A stretch of DNA of 64,000 nucleotides from a virus. This document shows, piece after piece, positions 17,803 through 27,122 of this stretch (position 1 is the first letter of the stretch; every line of letters begins with the position of its first letter). The DNA is taken from positions 56,931-120,930 of the IMG/VR virus record IMGVR_UViG_3300028920_000041; one strand, 5' to 3'. The position numbers were made by a program, and so were the translations under genes. The notes below the pieces were generated by a model. The model ran no database searches. It saw nothing but the letters and a program-made list of their open reading frames with translations, and had not been told where the DNA came from.

Positions 17803-17952
17803 ATGGGTCAGTTTCCTTGGCAATCTCCTGTTATTGAAGACAGTAAAGCAAAGACTAAGGATAAAAAGAAAGAAGCAAAGACCTCACTAGATCAAGAGGT
17901 AACTGGACTCCGGTATGTTCCGTGGCTTTTCAAGACTGTAAAAGATAAATAA
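17803..17952 (+). CDS. 49-residue Lys-rich protein
   Basis: ATG 17803 lies two bases after the upstream TAG, and TAATG at 17950-17954 couples it to the next gene. The product (MGQFPWQSPVIEDSKAK then a Lys run) ends in GLRYVPWLFKTVKDK. Small Lys-rich linker-like peptide; tight spacing supports translation. Function unknown. Confidence 0.45.
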   Translation: MGQFPWQSPVIEDSKAKTKDKKKEAKTSLDQEVTGLRYVPWLFKTVKDK

Positions 17953-18659
17953 TGCCCACCTTGAGATTTTCTTCTGGTAAAGACGCTAAGTACTTCAGGA
18001 AGAGATCTGCCGAAAAGGCAAGACTGTACTATCCCCCGCTGCGTTGGCTTCTCAACAGCAATACTATCACGTTAAATCTGTATGGGGAGCCTGGTAACCC
18101 TATTTCAGGTACAGACGGAGCTACATCGGTAGCAGCTACACAGCAGTTCACTTCTGCCAGTGCTGATTTTGTAGATGATGGGATCAGTCCGGGTGACATT
18201 TTGGAGATTGAAACGCCAACGTGTAACAGTGGCGACAATGGCAGGTACCAAGTAAGCTCTGTCATTGATGAGAACACACTAGACATTGGCGAGGACTGGC
18301 CTGCAGGTAACCTTTCGAACTTGGTCTATAACGTCCATCTATTGAAAGAACGCTACACAGAACATCCTCAGTTGATCCCGTTTAATGTAAAGCTACGCCC
18401 TACAGAAAAAGAGCTAACCCGGTGGGGTATTGGTGAGAGAAGAGACTGTATGTTTGTAATGAGCATTTACTTGTGTGATGAGATTGGTTTGATCCCAAAG
18501 ATAGGGGATAGGTTCCTTTATCCGTACCAAAGAAGTGGAAGACCTAGAGTCATTCACATGGAAGTCAAAAACCTCTACGAAGAAACACAGCTAACGAATA
18601 GTGCTGTACCCATTGACTATATTGGTTTTGCTGTCAGAACGACCAATAAGTTGCCGTAG
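17952..18659 (+). CDS. Neck protein (gp14-like, putative) with inserted beta module
   Basis: 235 residues. The N-terminal about 50 residues (KYFRKRSAEKARLYYPPLRW) and C-terminal part (RRDCMFVMSIYLCDEIGLIPKIGDRF, then TNSAVPIDYIGFAVRT) resemble the head-closure/neck proteins of T4-like phages. Between them, residues about 52-132 are one copy of the recurring beta module (SGDNGRYQVSSVIDENTLDI, EDWPAGNL), inserted cleanly. At DNA level the module's start shares 19 identical bases with a module in the sheath gene, so the copies may have spread recently. Confidence 0.6.
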   Translation: MPTLRFSSGKDAKYFRKRSAEKARLYYPPLRWLLNSNTITLNLYGEPGNPISGTDGATSVAATQQFTSASADFVDDGISPGDILEIETPTCNSGDNGRYQVSSVIDENTLDIGEDWPAGNLSNLVYNVHLLKERYTEHPQLIPFNVKLRPTEKELTRWGIGERRDCMFVMSIYLCDEIGLIPKIGDRFLYPYQRSGRPRVIHMEVKNLYEETQLTNSAVPIDYIGFAVRTTNKLP

Positions 18660-20503: not shown

Positions 20504-22738
20504 ATGGCGTTCGTCAGTGCTGGAGCTTATGCACGAGAAGTAGATCTTTCTCTGTATGCAGAGACCATTACCTCAACCATTCTTGGGATGGCCCACACGT
20601 TCAACAAGGGTCCTATTGGTACTCCTACTCTTATCACGAATATTGATAGGTTGATTGCCGAGTTTGGGGAACCCATAGATCCAGGCTCTAGCTCTTCAGC
20701 ATGCCAAGGTTGGTTTGCTGCCAGAGAGTATCTCAGAAAAGGTAATAAGCTTTATGTCAATAGGGTTGAGTCTACAGCTACTCCTGCAGCCTATGCAGCA
20801 CAGTCCGTTCGTGGTGTAACGGATCAAACTCTGGCAACAGGTACAGACGGAGCTACTTCTGTTCCAGCAACCAGAACACTAACATCGGCTACCGGGGATT
20901 TTGTAAATGATGGGATTTTGGTAGGCGATGTTTTGGAGGTTGACGAAGGTGGTGCCGATGATGGGTTCTATGTTTTAACTGCGGTTGCTGCTACGGTCCT
21001 AACGATTGACAGAGACTGGCCTACAGGCTCTTTGGCCGATCAAGACTTCACGGTTTGGACAGCAAAGAAAGAGGAAGGTGAAGACGGTGTTACAAGCGCT
21101 CTTGGCGTTCGTACACTAACCTCTGCAGCATCCACGTTCCAGACCAATGGTGTTGCGGCTGGAGATATCCTCAAGATTGCGGATCCCGGTGACACGGGGG
21201 ATAACGGTGTCTATTACATTGCATCGGTTGACAGCGAAACGCAGCTAACGGTTAACAGGGACTGGCAGGAAGGTGGCCTGTCTACGCTTACCTTTACGGT
21301 TTATGGTCCAAACAGCTCCGGAGCAACAGGAAGCACCGCTACAGCCGGTGAGTTTGCCGATACGAACGCCAAGTTCCAAGATCACGGTGTTCAAGCTGGA
21401 GATATCCTCTGGATTAAGGACGCTGTTGATATTGGTGATAATGGCTATTACATGATCACAGGCCTCAAGACAGGCTCTGAAGATACCACGCTAGAGGTTA
21501 ACGAAACAGCGTGGCCTGCAGGATCTCTGACGGGTCTTACCTATGAGGTTTTTCCAGGCTCTGTTACGTATCAAGGTGCAACAAAGGGAACCGCTTTCAG
21601 TGGTCTCAGAATTATCCCTTCTGTTAATGCCAATGACAATACCAAGGTGGACCTTGAGACCAAAAACTCTGCTGGTACATTCAGGCTTGAAAAAGTCTTT
21701 TCCATGGATCGCACTGATGCGGATACGGTGATGTCTTCTGACAGTGCGTATTGGACAGCAACCATAAGGTCTAACCGGTCAGACATCGTTGCAGGGGATA
21801 CATTTACGGTCTCTGGTGGAGATGATGGGTACACAGGGATCGTAGATAGTGACTACATTGGCAACTCTACTTTAGGTACAGGACTCCGAGGCTTTAGCAA
21901 TGCAGAAGCAATTGACGTAAACTTGCTTGTGTGCCCCGGGCAATCGAGCCAGAACGTACAAGATGAGCTAATCAATATCTGTGAGTCAAGAGCAGACTGT
22001 ATGGCGATTGTAGATCCGCCAGATTGGTCTGCAATCGATACAGTCCAAGAGATTTTGAACTTCCACAATGGGACTCTAACGCGCACTACAGCGCTCAACA
22101 CAACCTATGGTGCTTTGTATTGGACTTGGCAGAAAGTTTATGATGAGTACCATGATGTTGATGTGTGGACGGCACCCTCGGGTCACATGGCAGCAGTCTA
22201 TGCCAATAACGATAACGTTCAGGCTCCTTGGTTTGCCCCGGCTGGATTAAAGCGTGGTAAGCTGACTGGATCTACCGATGTTCGTTACTCGCCCAATCAG
22301 GATGACAGAGACGCTCTTTATGGGCCTGGAGCACGGGTCAACCCCATTGTCAACTTCACAGGCTCTGGGATCTATGCTTTTGGTCAGAAAACACTAACCA
22401 CAGCGACTACAGCACTTGATAGGGTCAATGTTCGTCGGATGCTGCTTTATGTGGAAAAGGTCATTGCTACAGCATCTAGACAGCTTGTTTTTGATCCGAA
22501 TGATGATGTACTAGAGAGGGAGTTTAAGCAGCTAGTAGAGCCTGTGCTGGACGATGTTTTGTCCAGGCGCGGGATCGCTGAGTACCTGATAACAACGGCT
22601 ACGACAGATTCAGACAGAGACAACAACAAAGCCGTGTTTAAGATCTTCATCAAACCGATAAAATCAGCCGAGATTATCGAGATAGTCTTTGCTTTAACCT
22701 CGCAAGGGGCAAATTTTTCTGAGCTTATAGCAGCATAG
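20504..22738 (+). CDS. Contractile tail sheath protein with three beta modules inserted in tandem
   Basis: 744 residues. The N-terminus (MAFVSAGAYAREVDLSLYAE, ILGMAHTFNKGPIGTPTLIT, FGEPIDPG, WFAAREYLRKGNKLYVNRV) and C-terminal half (YTWQ-like YWTWQKVYDEYHD, GHMAAVYANNDNVQAPWFAPAG, RRMLLYVEKVI, VLDDVLSRRGIAEYLI) are typical sheath domains that contract to drive the tube. Inserted at residues about 112-350 are three tandem copies of the recurring beta module, each centred on D-(D/N)-G-x-Y with a W-P/Q-x-G ending. They should form extra knobs on the sheath exterior. Confidence 0.9.
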   Translation: MAFVSAGAYAREVDLSLYAETITSTILGMAHTFNKGPIGTPTLITNIDRLIAEFGEPIDPGSSSSACQGWFAAREYLRKGNKLYVNRVESTATPAAYAAQSVRGVTDQTLATGTDGATSVPATRTLTSATGDFVNDGILVGDVLEVDEGGADDGFYVLTAVAATVLTIDRDWPTGSLADQDFTVWTAKKEEGEDGVTSALGVRTLTSAASTFQTNGVAAGDILKIADPGDTGDNGVYYIASVDSETQLTVNRDWQEGGLSTLTFTVYGPNSSGATGSTATAGEFADTNAKFQDHGVQAGDILWIKDAVDIGDNGYYMITGLKTGSEDTTLEVNETAWPAGSLTGLTYEVFPGSVTYQGATKGTAFSGLRIIPSVNANDNTKVDLETKNSAGTFRLEKVFSMDRTDADTVMSSDSAYWTATIRSNRSDIVAGDTFTVSGGDDGYTGIVDSDYIGNSTLGTGLRGFSNAEAIDVNLLVCPGQSSQNVQDELINICESRADCMAIVDPPDWSAIDTVQEILNFHNGTLTRTTALNTTYGALYWTWQKVYDEYHDVDVWTAPSGHMAAVYANNDNVQAPWFAPAGLKRGKLTGSTDVRYSPNQDDRDALYGPGARVNPIVNFTGSGIYAFGQKTLTTATTALDRVNVRRMLLYVEKVIATASRQLVFDPNDDVLEREFKQLVEPVLDDVLSRRGIAEYLITTATTDSDRDNNKAVFKIFIKPIKSAEIIEIVFALTSQGANFSELIAA

Positions 22739-22752
22739 GCAGGGGTTACGGG

Positions 22753-23025
22753 CTAGGCAGGGGTAGGGCTTTCGATAACGTCTTCGACAGTTTCACCTCT
22801 GCTTAGTCTTGCTTTTATCTCTTTTGAGTCTAGTAGCAAGATCTCTGCAATATCTTCCAAAGTAAACACTTCACCTCGGTATTCAAACAGCTCGGGTTCT
22901 TCTTTCGCTGGTAGGATCAAGACTATTCGTTTAAGAAAGCTGTTTGTCAGGAGTAAGAAGATCTTCGTTGTTGTCAAGTACAACATACTAGCCAGTTTAC
23001 AAATAGTCCCATTACGAATTGACAT
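22753..23025 (-). CDS. Lone minus-strand gene with C-terminal helix-turn-helix-like module
   Basis: 90 residues from the ATG at 23025, which is preceded (minus strand) by the Shine-Dalgarno GGGAG 7 bases upstream; a longer frame exists but lacks this site. The N-terminal half is hydrophobic/basic (LASMLYLTTTKIFLLLTN). The C-terminus, FEYRGEVFTLEDIAEILLLD then KEIKARLSRGETVEDVIES, matches the small DNA-binding 'G-x-x-x-T-L-x-x-(I/W)-A-E-(I/L)-L ... R-L-x-R-G-x-x-x-E-x-(A/V)' module common in phage and homing-endonuclease proteins. It has its own promoter and stands alone against a fully + strand genome: a moron. Function may be regulatory. Confidence 0.6.
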   Translation of the reverse strand: MSIRNGTICKLASMLYLTTTKIFLLLTNSFLKRIVLILPAKEEPELFEYRGEVFTLEDIAEILLLDSKEIKARLSRGETVEDVIESPTPA

Positions 23026-23101
23026 AAGGTGTCTCCCTTTTGACAGTATCTGTTGATGTTCAGGCAACTCTGACTTTTCAGGCAAACCCTACCGGCGACG
23101 A

Positions 23102-23149: not shown

Positions 23150-23695
23150 ATGGCTCTCACAAATCCGATGTCTGCGGACCACATAGCTGCAGAAGCAGGA
23201 TCTTTTGAACCCCAAAGGTCCAATAACTTCTCTATAGAAATTGCTCTGGAAGCAGCGGACAAAGACCTTATTATCATGGGTCTTCAGTCTGTACCACTTC
23301 CAAACGAAAGCAATGATGAAATAGAGATCCAGTATCAGAATGAAAAGAGGTACATTGCTGGCCAATACACAATAGACTCGACAACGCTGATTGTCAGAGA
23401 CTTTGTCGATCAGGACACGCGTGGTGCTTTAATGCGTTGGCGAAAGAAAGTCTATGATCCGGCTACAGGTCAGGTAGGCTTAGCAGCGGACTATAAGAAG
23501 TCAGCAAACATCGTCCTTACGGCTCCAGATGGATCAGAAAAGCGCGTTTGCAAGCTCAAGGGAACGTGGCCACAGGCTTTGACCGGTGGAAACCTTGCTA
23601 TGGATGCAAGTGACCAAGTGTTAGTTGAGTTGACCCTTCGGGTAGACAAAGCAATCTGGGATCTGCCCGGTGCCTCTGGTGGGGGTGCTGGTTAG
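23150..23695 (+). CDS. Tail tube protein (gp19-like)
   Basis: 181 residues directly after the sheath region, with a strong ribosome site (CAGGAGAAATTTT). The pattern NNFSIEIALEAADKDLIIMGLQSVPLPNES is not quoted in full, but its parts, followed by RDFVDQDTRGALMRWRKKVYDP and the late KLKGTWPQAL, fit the contractile-tail tube family (T4 gp19 / phage T4-like tube), which stacks as hexamer rings. The C-terminus is a flexible Gly-rich tail. Confident by family pattern plus sheath-tube order. Confidence 0.85.
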   Translation: MALTNPMSADHIAAEAGSFEPQRSNNFSIEIALEAADKDLIIMGLQSVPLPNESNDEIEIQYQNEKRYIAGQYTIDSTTLIVRDFVDQDTRGALMRWRKKVYDPATGQVGLAADYKKSANIVLTAPDGSEKRVCKLKGTWPQALTGGNLAMDASDQVLVELTLRVDKAIWDLPGASGGGAG

Positions 23696-23753: not shown

Positions 23754-24539
23754 ATGGGGAAAGAGTATATTGGTGAGTTGCAAGTTGCTTCTAAGGGATT
23801 ACTCTATGATGAAAAATTTCCATCTGGAAAGCTTCATGTAGAGCCATGGGGAACCCAAGAAGAGCGGCTTTTGATCTCGCCCAACATAGACTATGATGAG
23901 GTTATAGATAGGCTCGTAAAACGTCTTACCGATTGTCCTATTCCCGCCGACGATCTAACCCTCCCTGACAGGCAACACATTTTCATTTACATGCGGTGTC
24001 TTTCTTTTGGAGGGGACTACTCGTTCTTCTTCCAATGCTCGGAGTGTAAAGAGAAAGTGAAACACTCTATGGATTTGGAAAAAGAGCTTGATGTCAAGTA
24101 CGCTGATGATCCTGAGTTGCTTAGTTCGCTAGGTTTTGATGATGCTGAAGACTTCAAAGAACCCTTCGAGTTTGTGCTACCTCTAAAGCAACAACGGGTT
24201 GGCTGGCGTATGCTTCGCGGCAAGGATGAAAGGAAGGTTAAAAAGTACGTACAAAAGATGACCAAGAGGCATGGATCTGATGAGCGTTATGACTACATCT
24301 ATAGAGCGGCTTTGCGCATTGTCTCAGTAGATGGTAAAGACCTAGAGATTACAGACAAGCTCTCTTTTGTCTCCAGCCTCAAAGGCAAAGATGCTTTAGC
24401 TATTCGTCAGGCAGTGGATAAGGTTGATTTTGGGTTGGACACAGAGCTTGAGGTTAAGTGTCGAAGTTGCGGCTATCCAAATGATCTGATTATGCCGATA
24501 GATAAGAGCTTTTTTCGTCCTGAGCGGTCAGTTATATAG
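23754..24539 (+). CDS. Tail assembly chaperone (T4 gp26-like), short form
   Basis: 261 residues between the tube and tape-measure genes, the standard position for a tail assembly chaperone. It has two Cys pairs (FFQCSECKEK and VKCRSCGYPN), as in T4 gp26-type baseplate/chaperone proteins, and ends PIDKSFFRPERSVI. The coding frame ends at 24539, but a second segment continues in the +1 frame without a start codon (see 24502-24716), so a longer fusion product is likely. The chaperone is expected to bind the tape measure protein during tail assembly. Confidence 0.7.
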   Translation: MGKEYIGELQVASKGLLYDEKFPSGKLHVEPWGTQEERLLISPNIDYDEVIDRLVKRLTDCPIPADDLTLPDRQHIFIYMRCLSFGGDYSFFFQCSECKEKVKHSMDLEKELDVKYADDPELLSSLGFDDAEDFKEPFEFVLPLKQQRVGWRMLRGKDERKVKKYVQKMTKRHGSDERYDYIYRAALRIVSVDGKDLEITDKLSFVSSLKGKDALAIRQAVDKVDFGLDTELEVKCRSCGYPNDLIMPIDKSFFRPERSVI

Positions 24540-24716
24540 CGTCCAAGATCAGGCTAGTATCATAAATGACCTAGTCTTCTATGGAGGTTTTAGTTACGAA
24601 GCCGCCGTAACGATGCCAGTGTTCGAAAGAGACTTTCATCATCAGGAGATAAAGCGCAAGAGATCTGAAGAAAGAGATTTTCAACTAGCAATCCATGGCG
24701 TGAAGAAGAAGAGCTA
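24502..24716 (+). CDS. Chaperone C-terminal extension reached by +1 frameshift
   Basis: This frame is open from 24502 to the TAA overlapping the tape-measure ATG (TAATG), and contains no ATG, GTG or TTG before the conserved part. The product includes INDLVFYGGFSYEAAVTMPV followed by a FERDF-type segment and a charged helix, which resembles the small second chaperone segment found in this place in T4-like phages. It overlaps the upstream frame by 38 bases containing six T in a row (AGC TTT TTT CGT). A +1 slip of tRNA-Phe from TTT to TTC at 24513-24516 would join ...DKSFF to VLSGQLYS... and onward. Strong positional evidence; not experimentally shown. Confidence 0.65.
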
Positions 24717-27122
24717 ATGCCGAACGACAAAAAAGACAATCCGTTTTTCTTTGAAGCTGGGCTTGATGTCTCAGATCTTCAGAAGTCTTTGACAAAAGCG
24801 GAGAAGTCTTATCTGGCGTTTAGCAAGCAAATAGGTGAGACGGTTGAAGGCCTCGAAGAGCAAGAACAAGTCCATAAAAAGGTAGGCGAGAGAGCTAAAG
24901 AGTCAGCGGAGAAAGAAGAGGAAGCCGCTAAGAAGACAAGCAACTGGCTTAGCCGTTTATTCAAGAAAAGACAAAAGTCAGAACGAGATCGCAAGAGGAA
25001 GGAAAAGGATTCAGAGCAGTCTGGAAAAGATAGACTTAGCTTTACCAAGTCTGTAGGTGCTGGCGTTACCAAAGTGTTGCAAAGGGAGCGTTCTGCAGCC
25101 GATGCACTAGGGCTTTCTTTTTCCAATTTAGCAGCTCTTATAGGTGGTGTTACTGTAGTTGGGTTGATCGGAAAAGCTATAAAAGACTACCTTGAATTTG
25201 ACTCTCAGATACGGTCTTTGAATGTTTCGATGGGATCTACTCCAAAGATTATGCAGGTAGCAGCGACAAGCATCCGAGACTTGACAGGCTACTTGAACGT
25301 AACCCGGGAAGAGCTTTCATCCGTAACAAAGCTTATGGGTGAGACCCGGATGTTTGCAAAGAACACAGATGAAGCAGCGCGATCGTTCCGTGCTTTGACA
25401 ATGGACGTTATTCACTTGAGCAAGTCCATGGATGTCTCTATGGATTCCGTTGTTGGCATGTTCGAAAACTTTACAAGAGTCTATAAGTTGCCACACCATA
25501 GATTGAGAAACATAGCAGCATCCATGAAATTCATTCAAGAGCAGACTTCAATCAGTGGTCAAGAGCTTGTCTCGTTTAGTGAAGGCCTTGATGAAGTCAT
25601 CTCCAGAATGATCCGTACAACAGAGGAGGGAAGAGCCCAAGCAACTGCTGACTTGATGGCTATGGCTGGAGTCTTAAAGTATATGGGAGTTCAGCCGCAA
25701 AAGGTTTCTCAGATGTTTGGGGAAGCCATGAAACTGCATTCAGAGCAAGGCGCGCAGTTCCTTTCGTTCATTACAGAAGGTACGGACAAGTCTGCAGAGC
25801 AAGTCAGGCGTATGATGCAGGCAGGAGATATGCAGACGCCTTTGACAATGCTGATTAATAGGATCAAAAAAGAAGGTCCGGAGTACTTAGAGCGTAACGA
25901 AGAGTGGTTGACAGAAGTAACAGGTATGACGTTTGCTGAGCTAAGAAACATACAGCAGTCTAGCACTCAAGGTATGCAAGATCTATTTGAGCGAAATCGT
26001 AAGGAATACATTCGTGGTCAAAAGCATGCAGAGGAAGCACAAAAGAGGCAGCATGCTTTGTCGAAACTGTGGAACAACCTAAAGCGCGTTGCGGAACGTG
26101 TCTGGCTCGGTATTGGTAAGGTGTTTGTGTCTGTAGCATCCAAGGTATCTAACATCTTGGTTCCTGTTCTTCAGAACATGATGGAACGGCTAGACAGATG
26201 GCTCAGTGATCCAAGGGGTGCTGAATCTATAAACGAGTGGGCAAAGCGCTTGGTAGGTTGGTTTAAGTCAATCTACGAATGGGCAGTTAACGCACTCGTT
26301 CCAGCGATTGCCGCTGTTGCAGGTGTTGTCAAGTCTGCAATCAATTGGTGGCAGAATTTGTCTGGTACAGAGCAGAGTATTGTCAAATGGGGAATGGCTG
26401 TTGGTGCTGTAATGACCATGATTGGAGGCAAGACAGGCCTTGTCGTGGGTGCTTTTAGCGCTGCTTTTAGTGTGGGTATGAAGCTTGGTGAAGCCATTCA
26501 CGAGATCACAGGCGGTGCTGATAAACTGCGTATGACTATGGAGTCTTTAAGATTCTACAAGAGGTTGAATAAAGCAGAATCGACTCAAATGGAATTTAAA
26601 GACATGATGCAGCGTGCTAGCCATATGCAGACTGGTAAGAACATTGCCATTGAAGAACTCCAAAGGTTCATAGCATCAGGTGTTATAGATAGCAGTGGAG
26701 CAGTTAACTTAAACCATCCTGTGATTCGTGCCATGACAGCAGATCAAGGAATTGGTCCAGTTAAAGCACTTCAAAAAACCATCTCAAAGTCTTTGGCAAA
26801 TGCAGCCTCAATAGAGACAGCCATAGGATCCAAGGCGGTTACTTCAGGCGATATACTATCAGAAGCTGGATCTTCTTTCCGGATAGCAGCACCTACAGCA
26901 AAGCCTACAGGTGTCCAGGCAGCTCCATCTATGCCGCTTCCAGGGGTTGGTGCACCACCTGTAGATGTCCAACCGGCCGCACCACCACCTTCCCCTGTTG
27001 TCAAGGTCAGCACAGATAGCCCAAAGGAAGAAAGGCTCCTTGGAGAGATCAGAGACACGTTAGTGCGTATCTCTGGTAAGGGTATAGCTCACCCGTCCAG
27101 ACAACTCTTGCATGCTACGTAG
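24717..27122 (+). CDS. Tape measure protein
   Basis: 801 residues. The N-terminal about 130 residues are charged coiled coil (KSERDRKRKEKDSEQSG), followed by hydrophobic spans typical of tape measure proteins (LAALIGGVTVVGLIGKAI near 138; AVGAVMTMIGGKTGLVVGAF near 565). The C-terminus is Pro/Ala rich and ends with a helix that contacts the hub region. Position after the chaperone and before the baseplate hub is decisive. At about 0.15 nm per residue it predicts a tail near 120 nm; this is a family rule of thumb. Confidence 0.88.
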   Translation: MPNDKKDNPFFFEAGLDVSDLQKSLTKAEKSYLAFSKQIGETVEGLEEQEQVHKKVGERAKESAEKEEEAAKKTSNWLSRLFKKRQKSERDRKRKEKDSEQSGKDRLSFTKSVGAGVTKVLQRERSAADALGLSFSNLAALIGGVTVVGLIGKAIKDYLEFDSQIRSLNVSMGSTPKIMQVAATSIRDLTGYLNVTREELSSVTKLMGETRMFAKNTDEAARSFRALTMDVIHLSKSMDVSMDSVVGMFENFTRVYKLPHHRLRNIAASMKFIQEQTSISGQELVSFSEGLDEVISRMIRTTEEGRAQATADLMAMAGVLKYMGVQPQKVSQMFGEAMKLHSEQGAQFLSFITEGTDKSAEQVRRMMQAGDMQTPLTMLINRIKKEGPEYLERNEEWLTEVTGMTFAELRNIQQSSTQGMQDLFERNRKEYIRGQKHAEEAQKRQHALSKLWNNLKRVAERVWLGIGKVFVSVASKVSNILVPVLQNMMERLDRWLSDPRGAESINEWAKRLVGWFKSIYEWAVNALVPAIAAVAGVVKSAINWWQNLSGTEQSIVKWGMAVGAVMTMIGGKTGLVVGAFSAAFSVGMKLGEAIHEITGGADKLRMTMESLRFYKRLNKAESTQMEFKDMMQRASHMQTGKNIAIEELQRFIASGVIDSSGAVNLNHPVIRAMTADQGIGPVKALQKTISKSLANAASIETAIGSKAVTSGDILSEAGSSFRIAAPTAKPTGVQAAPSMPLPGVGAPPVDVQPAAPPPSPVVKVSTDSPKEERLLGEIRDTLVRISGKGIAHPSRQLLHAT

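Follow-up and report, generated by a model that had tools for sequence, protein, structure and literature searches.

How is a reading frame translated that carries no evident start codon ahead of its conserved core? In the 64,000-nucleotide stretch of DNA analysed here (the window), taken from a virus record of 120,930 bases, such a frame lies at +1 to a putative tail assembly chaperone gene and runs up to the tape measure gene. It is very probable, from homology, the slip site, the startless frame and selection, that one mRNA gives two tail assembly chaperones by way of a +1 shift, in line with the first-pass annotation of this DNA, which had proposed a two-part chaperone before the tape measure gene.

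Layout of the tail gene locus

The chaperone gene follows structural genes for a tail sheath protein (20504..22738, plus strand; phrog_23, 2.2e-79) and a T4 gp19-like tail tube protein (23150..23695, plus strand; phrog_4542 tail tube protein, 1.8e-16; phrog_45, 6.1e-16; PF06841, 2.6e-6, slightly below the family cut-off), and precedes the gene for the tape measure protein (24717..27122, plus strand), which was assigned from its position and from matches to phrog_1533 and phrog_28 (tail length tape measure, E 1e-3). The ATG of the tape measure gene (24717-24719) overlaps the TAA stop codon of the +1 frame (24715-24717), forming the sequence TAATG. In the nearest relative that reaches the slip site, L002 (58% identity), a gene that appears by eye to be dUTPase-like, together with a small ORF (L002:7016-7525), separates the chaperone tail from the tape measure gene, whereas the window has the direct TAATG. 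The 744-residue sheath protein (20504-22738) apparently contains, by eye, three copies of a domain with the pattern TDGATSV...DDGI..GD.LE....GDNG.Y.V.....LT....WP.G.L, and the ORF at 17952-18659 shows one copy of this repeated domain, suggesting an inserted domain common to two structural proteins. Between the sheath and tube genes lies a minus-strand ORF (22753-23085, 110 residues) in a late region that otherwise occupies the plus strand.

Two predicted products related to gp26 and gp51 of T4

The zero frame (23754..24539, plus strand) encodes the predicted short product, a TAC-N or T4 gp26-type protein of 261 residues with a CxxC zinc ribbon. It matched PF12322 (T4_baseplate) with an E-value of 2.2e-15 and 57.4 bits against a cut-off of 24.5, which identifies the N-terminal domain, and phrog_150 with an E-value of 7.5e-19. 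The N part and the tail were folded separately with AF2, and the model of the N part (mean pLDDT 90) is ordered to about residue 250-254, the position of the slip site, beyond which confidence drops. When this model was compared with 350,542 PDB chains, the HK97 tail assembly chaperone 2ob9 came first with a weak, non-significant match (E 1.2, prob 0.38), and in a viral structure library it matched gp26-type proteins of many myophages, the best being that of SP-15 (E 9e-20).

Translated from the slip as far as 24714, the +1 frame (24502..24717, plus strand) would give the long product its C-terminal domain (TAC-C, the gp51 C-terminus type), and it is closed by TAA 24715-24717. Re-reading of the coordinates agreed with the first-pass annotation that the chaperone frame ends at 24539 and that the +1 frame is open from 24502 (to 24714) up to TAATG. 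The accompanying statement that the +1 frame is startless holds for 24502-24612, where no ATG, GTG or TTG occurs, but not for the remainder, as ATG 24613 and GTG 24619 fall inside the conserved core TMPVFE. The tail of the window alone gave no family match above threshold in Pfam and PHROG profile searches; with the fused protein, the score against phrog_150 rose slightly and the end of the match moved from 233 to 271 of 282 profile positions. The tail of L002 and one tail of the Mel-JY01-type family matched phrog_634, 'baseplate hub assembly catalyst' (2.7e-5 and 0.008, respectively). The AF2 model of the tail consists of three helices with a core above 90 and found weak matches in the viral library (E 1-4), including P-HM1 gp51, the hub assembly catalyst of ZZ1 and several named tail chaperones.

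T4 gp26 and gp51 are paralogues that both belong to PF12322, and gp51 has an additional C-terminal domain (phrog_634). In single pairwise profile comparisons with hhalign, the alignment of the fusion with gp51 crosses the junction and reaches profile column 320 (E 2.4e-9), whereas the alignment with gp26 stops at column 268, the slip site (E 1.8e-10). The tails matched the C-terminus of gp51 (E 1.7e-5; cyanophage tails, 1.2e-9), which identifies the C-terminal domain, and gave no match to the gp26 profile. Because gp26 aligns as far as the slip site and gp51 across it, the short product would be the counterpart of gp26 and the fused product that of gp51, and, as judged from these profiles, the +1 frame encodes a predicted separate helical domain that is homologous to the gp51 C-terminus. 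The name chaperone, which had been a guess at first pass, is now founded on this homology. T4 and the window thus share the same two-part protein, gp26 (TAC-N) corresponding to the zero-frame product and gp51 (TAC-NC) to the fusion including the C-terminal domain, but T4 makes the short and the long form from two duplicated genes whereas the window would use one gene and a +1 shift. Vladimirov, Gautam and Davidson, in 2022 (Virology 566:9-15), are said to have named genes 26 and 51 as a short/long pair, and with this precedent the pair was dropped as a new idea. Vladimirov 2022 is summarised in PMC10274946, and papers citing it report that some T4-like phages have a short gene together with a fused long gene and that others have T-rich -1 signals.

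The slip site, its relatives and selection on the shifted frame

The candidate slip site AGC TTT TTT CGT C (24507..24519, plus strand) was read directly from the sequence and comprises the codons AGC 24507-24509, TTT 24510-24512, TTT 24513-24515 and CGT 24516-24518, followed by C 24519. Among the window's 43 ORFs, TTT TTT C occurs in frame a single time. A point against the frameshift explanation is that the rarity of CGT is no more than moderate, at 8.2 per 1000 and in 11th place from the rarest of the 61 codons seen. L002 has TCG TTT TTT CGT C followed by a startless +1 tail, and GXN1 has TTC TTT CGT C, where only the second Phe codon can slip because the preceding codon is TTC. The site common to the window and GXN1 is UUU_CGU_C, the P-site codon being the second of two Phe codons.

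Just two members of the window's closest family extend to the slip site, and neither a DNA-level search of phage records nor a scan of genome contigs yielded a match or relative. Ten divergent relatives aligned together proved too variable to serve as a scanning query, and scans with several queries provided about 226 distinct usable related loci. All divergent phages compared have an out-of-frame tail, in +1 for SP-15, LIS04, immuto, Mel-JY01, LR756508 and GXN1 and in -1 for LR756511 and RAS14. A +1 tail was found at 152 of the approximately 226 loci, namely in the families of Mel-JY01 (67/67), immuto (64/64) and LR756508 (15/17) and in the window, L002, SP-15, LIS04, GXN1 and S-SCSM1. The frame overlap of all 152 +1 loci contains a YUU_Y codon, though the site finder searched for YUU_Y itself and the informative part is the fixed place and the context, which is almost throughout TTT or CTT with TGG CCT (sites TTT TGG CCT, CTT TGG CCT or TTT_C). 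The slip codon in the +1 families is CUU_U in part of the immuto family (about 29 loci) and UUU_U in the others. CCT follows the site at 67/67 loci of the Mel-JY01 family, whereas in the rest of these genes it makes up 25% of Pro codons, an invariance that two-frame coding would be expected to produce. The first-pass annotation had looked to relatives for conservation of T6-C and of the missing start; L002 keeps both, the wider family only partly.

The same loci bear on whether RNA polymerase rather than the ribosome slips, losing one T from the T6 run, in which case a mixed mRNA pool would yield the long form. T-runs are known sites of slippage in bacteria, and a run of T6 in the window and of T7 in many relatives would allow it, but homologous sites with the same +1 tail have no such run (TTT CTT TGG at 28 immuto loci, TTC TTT TGG at 12 L8 loci, and TTT CTA), and the element shared across sites is the YUU_Y codon rather than the T-run. 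Transcriptional slippage was rejected on the basis of these sites and is regarded as very improbable. The YUU_Y sites would fit a +1 re-pairing of the P-site tRNA.

Start codons were considered in the same set of loci. An ATG, GTG or TTG lies between the slip and the core in 29/67 relatives of the Mel-JY01 family and 23/64 of the immuto family, where a minor independent start is possible; neither the window nor L002 has such a codon there. In the LR756508 family, L118 and L123 depart from the +1 arrangement: their tail lies in another frame and has an ATG of its own directly past the stop. In cyanophages, T_TTT_TTC, in which the preceding codon always ends in T and so completes the classic -1 heptamer, is present in 75/76, and an ATG in 73/75 of the tails; their gp26-gp51 locus belongs to the same family and has a slip motif where the gp26 gene ends, but differs from the window in that the shift would be -1 at T_TTT_TTC and that the tail could also use an ATG. 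S-SCSM1 (L094, near 3180) is the sole +1 cyanophage among -1 relatives, which may reflect a true switch or a record error. A reading in which the tail of the window forms a gene by itself, reached by re-initiation or through a non-standard start codon, would be in keeping with L118, L123 and Cygsa01 (TAATG), which appear to use a separate tail gene, with the downstream ATG of nearly all cyanophages and with the habit of annotators of naming the tail baseplate hub assembly catalyst. However, neither the window nor L002 has an ATG, GTG or TTG ahead of the conserved core, a start at 24613 would lose half of the tail domain, and a separate gene leaves the conservation of the slip codon unexplained, so that we give this explanation very little credence.

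The +1 segment had been described at first pass as looking conserved, and in four related families purifying selection acts on the tail frame, with a median pN/pS of 0.13-0.26 compared with 1.2-3.6 in the two other frames (pairs 70-93% identical and not independent of one another). Between the window and L002 synonymous sites are saturated and the direction of the selection signal is the same. Although a single-base shift is the typical result of a sequencing or assembly indel, and a decaying gene might look alike, the identical shift is present at the same site in contigs of unrelated samples and in cultured phages, and the shifted frame is under strong purifying selection; because the shift recurs, error or decay is refuted in practice and retains a negligible probability. 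A +1 shift at TTT-C, as claimed at first pass, is supported by the homology, the retained site and startless frame, and the selection on the tail frame.

A stem CCTGA/TCAGG (24519/24549) had been put forward as a helper of the shift, but the minimum free energy structure of the window pairs CUGA 24520-24523 with UCAG 24528-24531 and adds a larger downstream hairpin (z -2.2), L002 has no comparable downstream structure signal (z -0.2), and the +1 families give little structure signal, with a mean z over 70 bases downstream of -0.5 to -0.7 compared with -1.5 in cyanophages. The stem was therefore rejected as a conserved stimulator. The small CUGA/UCAG hairpin directly 3' of the slip site (24520..24531, plus strand) was predicted in the window only, and its function is doubtful. 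As the +1 families have no conserved stimulatory structure, the shift rate may be low.

Proposed mechanism and comparison with known frameshift systems

Most ribosomes would terminate at 24539 and release the short form of 261 residues (gp26 type). A fraction would slip by +1 when peptidyl-tRNA-Phe sits on UUU 24513-24515 with CGU (Arg) in the A site, re-pair with UUC 24514-24516 and continue with GUC (24517-24519), then CUG, to 24714, producing a long form of about 320 residues that would gain the helical C-terminal domain (gp51 type). On the model of lambda G/GT, coating of the tape measure protein would fall to the short form and recruitment of the tail tube protein to the rare long form, and neither would remain in the virion. 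The occurrence and efficiency of the shift, the precise codon used and the roles of the two forms are points that we infer. Lambda gpG/gpGT likewise provides a short and a frameshifted long tail chaperone directly before the tape measure gene, but shifts by -1 whereas the window would shift by +1.

The first-pass annotation had implied that a +1 shift would be a distinct variant, which is not supported, as +1 shifts in tail chaperones and a bacterial UUU_Y site are already published: the tail chaperone of HSTV-2 was reported as very likely shifting by +1 and UUU_Y as a bacterial site prone to +1 shifts even where no stop codon is present (PMC5009743), and forward shifts are described among SEA-PHAGES tail chaperones (PMC10274946). 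These are +1 shifts, very likely so in HSTV-2, in a tail chaperone gene as proposed here, but in different phages and proteins. The +1 site of influenza A PA-X is UCC_UUU_CGU, and there a change of UCC to AGC before the site reduces shifting; this precedent counts against the window, which has AGC, though here, unlike in PA-X, a further TTT stands directly before the TTT that would slip. Neither a stop codon nor an evident structure accompanies the +1 shift at the PA-X and amalgavirus UUU_CGN sites, as would be the case here, but these are eukaryotic viruses, whereas the window relies on bacterial ribosomes and has a different preceding codon. The CUU_U +1 site of prfB has the same codon as about 29 immuto-family loci, the next codon there being UGG. 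The prfB shift requires an in-frame stop codon and a Shine-Dalgarno-like element.

In a tree of the N part, whose long branches make the deep order unsafe, the direction of the shift switches several times, with at least three changes of the +1 label on well supported branches, and the duplicated genes of T4 form one group (99/93). On balance, we favour the reading that a large, mostly uncultured T4-related branch uses a +1 shift at sense-codon YUU_YNN sites that have neither a stop codon nor a clear stimulator, among them a PA-X-type UUU_CGU on bacterial ribosomes, and that a single chaperone family has moved between a +1 shift, a -1 shift, a downstream gene for the tail and duplication of the gene to obtain the same short/long pair. 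In the open-licence literature, no report was found of a conserved stop-codon-free +1 shift at YUU_Y, with UUU_CGU as at the influenza PA-X site, in the gp26/gp51 family; what would be new is the direction and site of the well-supported shift in this chaperone family, frameshifted tail chaperones being already known. In 2016 the frameshift was presented as a conserved trait of tail chaperones in long-tailed phages, T4 being the exception (PMC5009743), and the present family connects T4 genes 26 and 51 to this system, with intermediate states visible. It also provides more than 150 natural cases of a simple, putative bacterial +1 site, from which the determinants of UUU_Y slippage could be worked out.

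In public genomes such as those of SP-15, LIS04, immuto and S-CAM8, the second half of the chaperone gene is mis-annotated or missing. In these records (L003, L004, L005 and L095, respectively) the tail is given as a short hypothetical ORF that starts inside it, or is unannotated. The fusion of the window is predicted to span SFFVLSG, and that of immuto ...SFFGLTPEYR or ...SFLGLTPEYR, according to which codon slips. For SP-15, the predicted junction sequence of the fusion is ...ELPINSEFFTPDSTTK.
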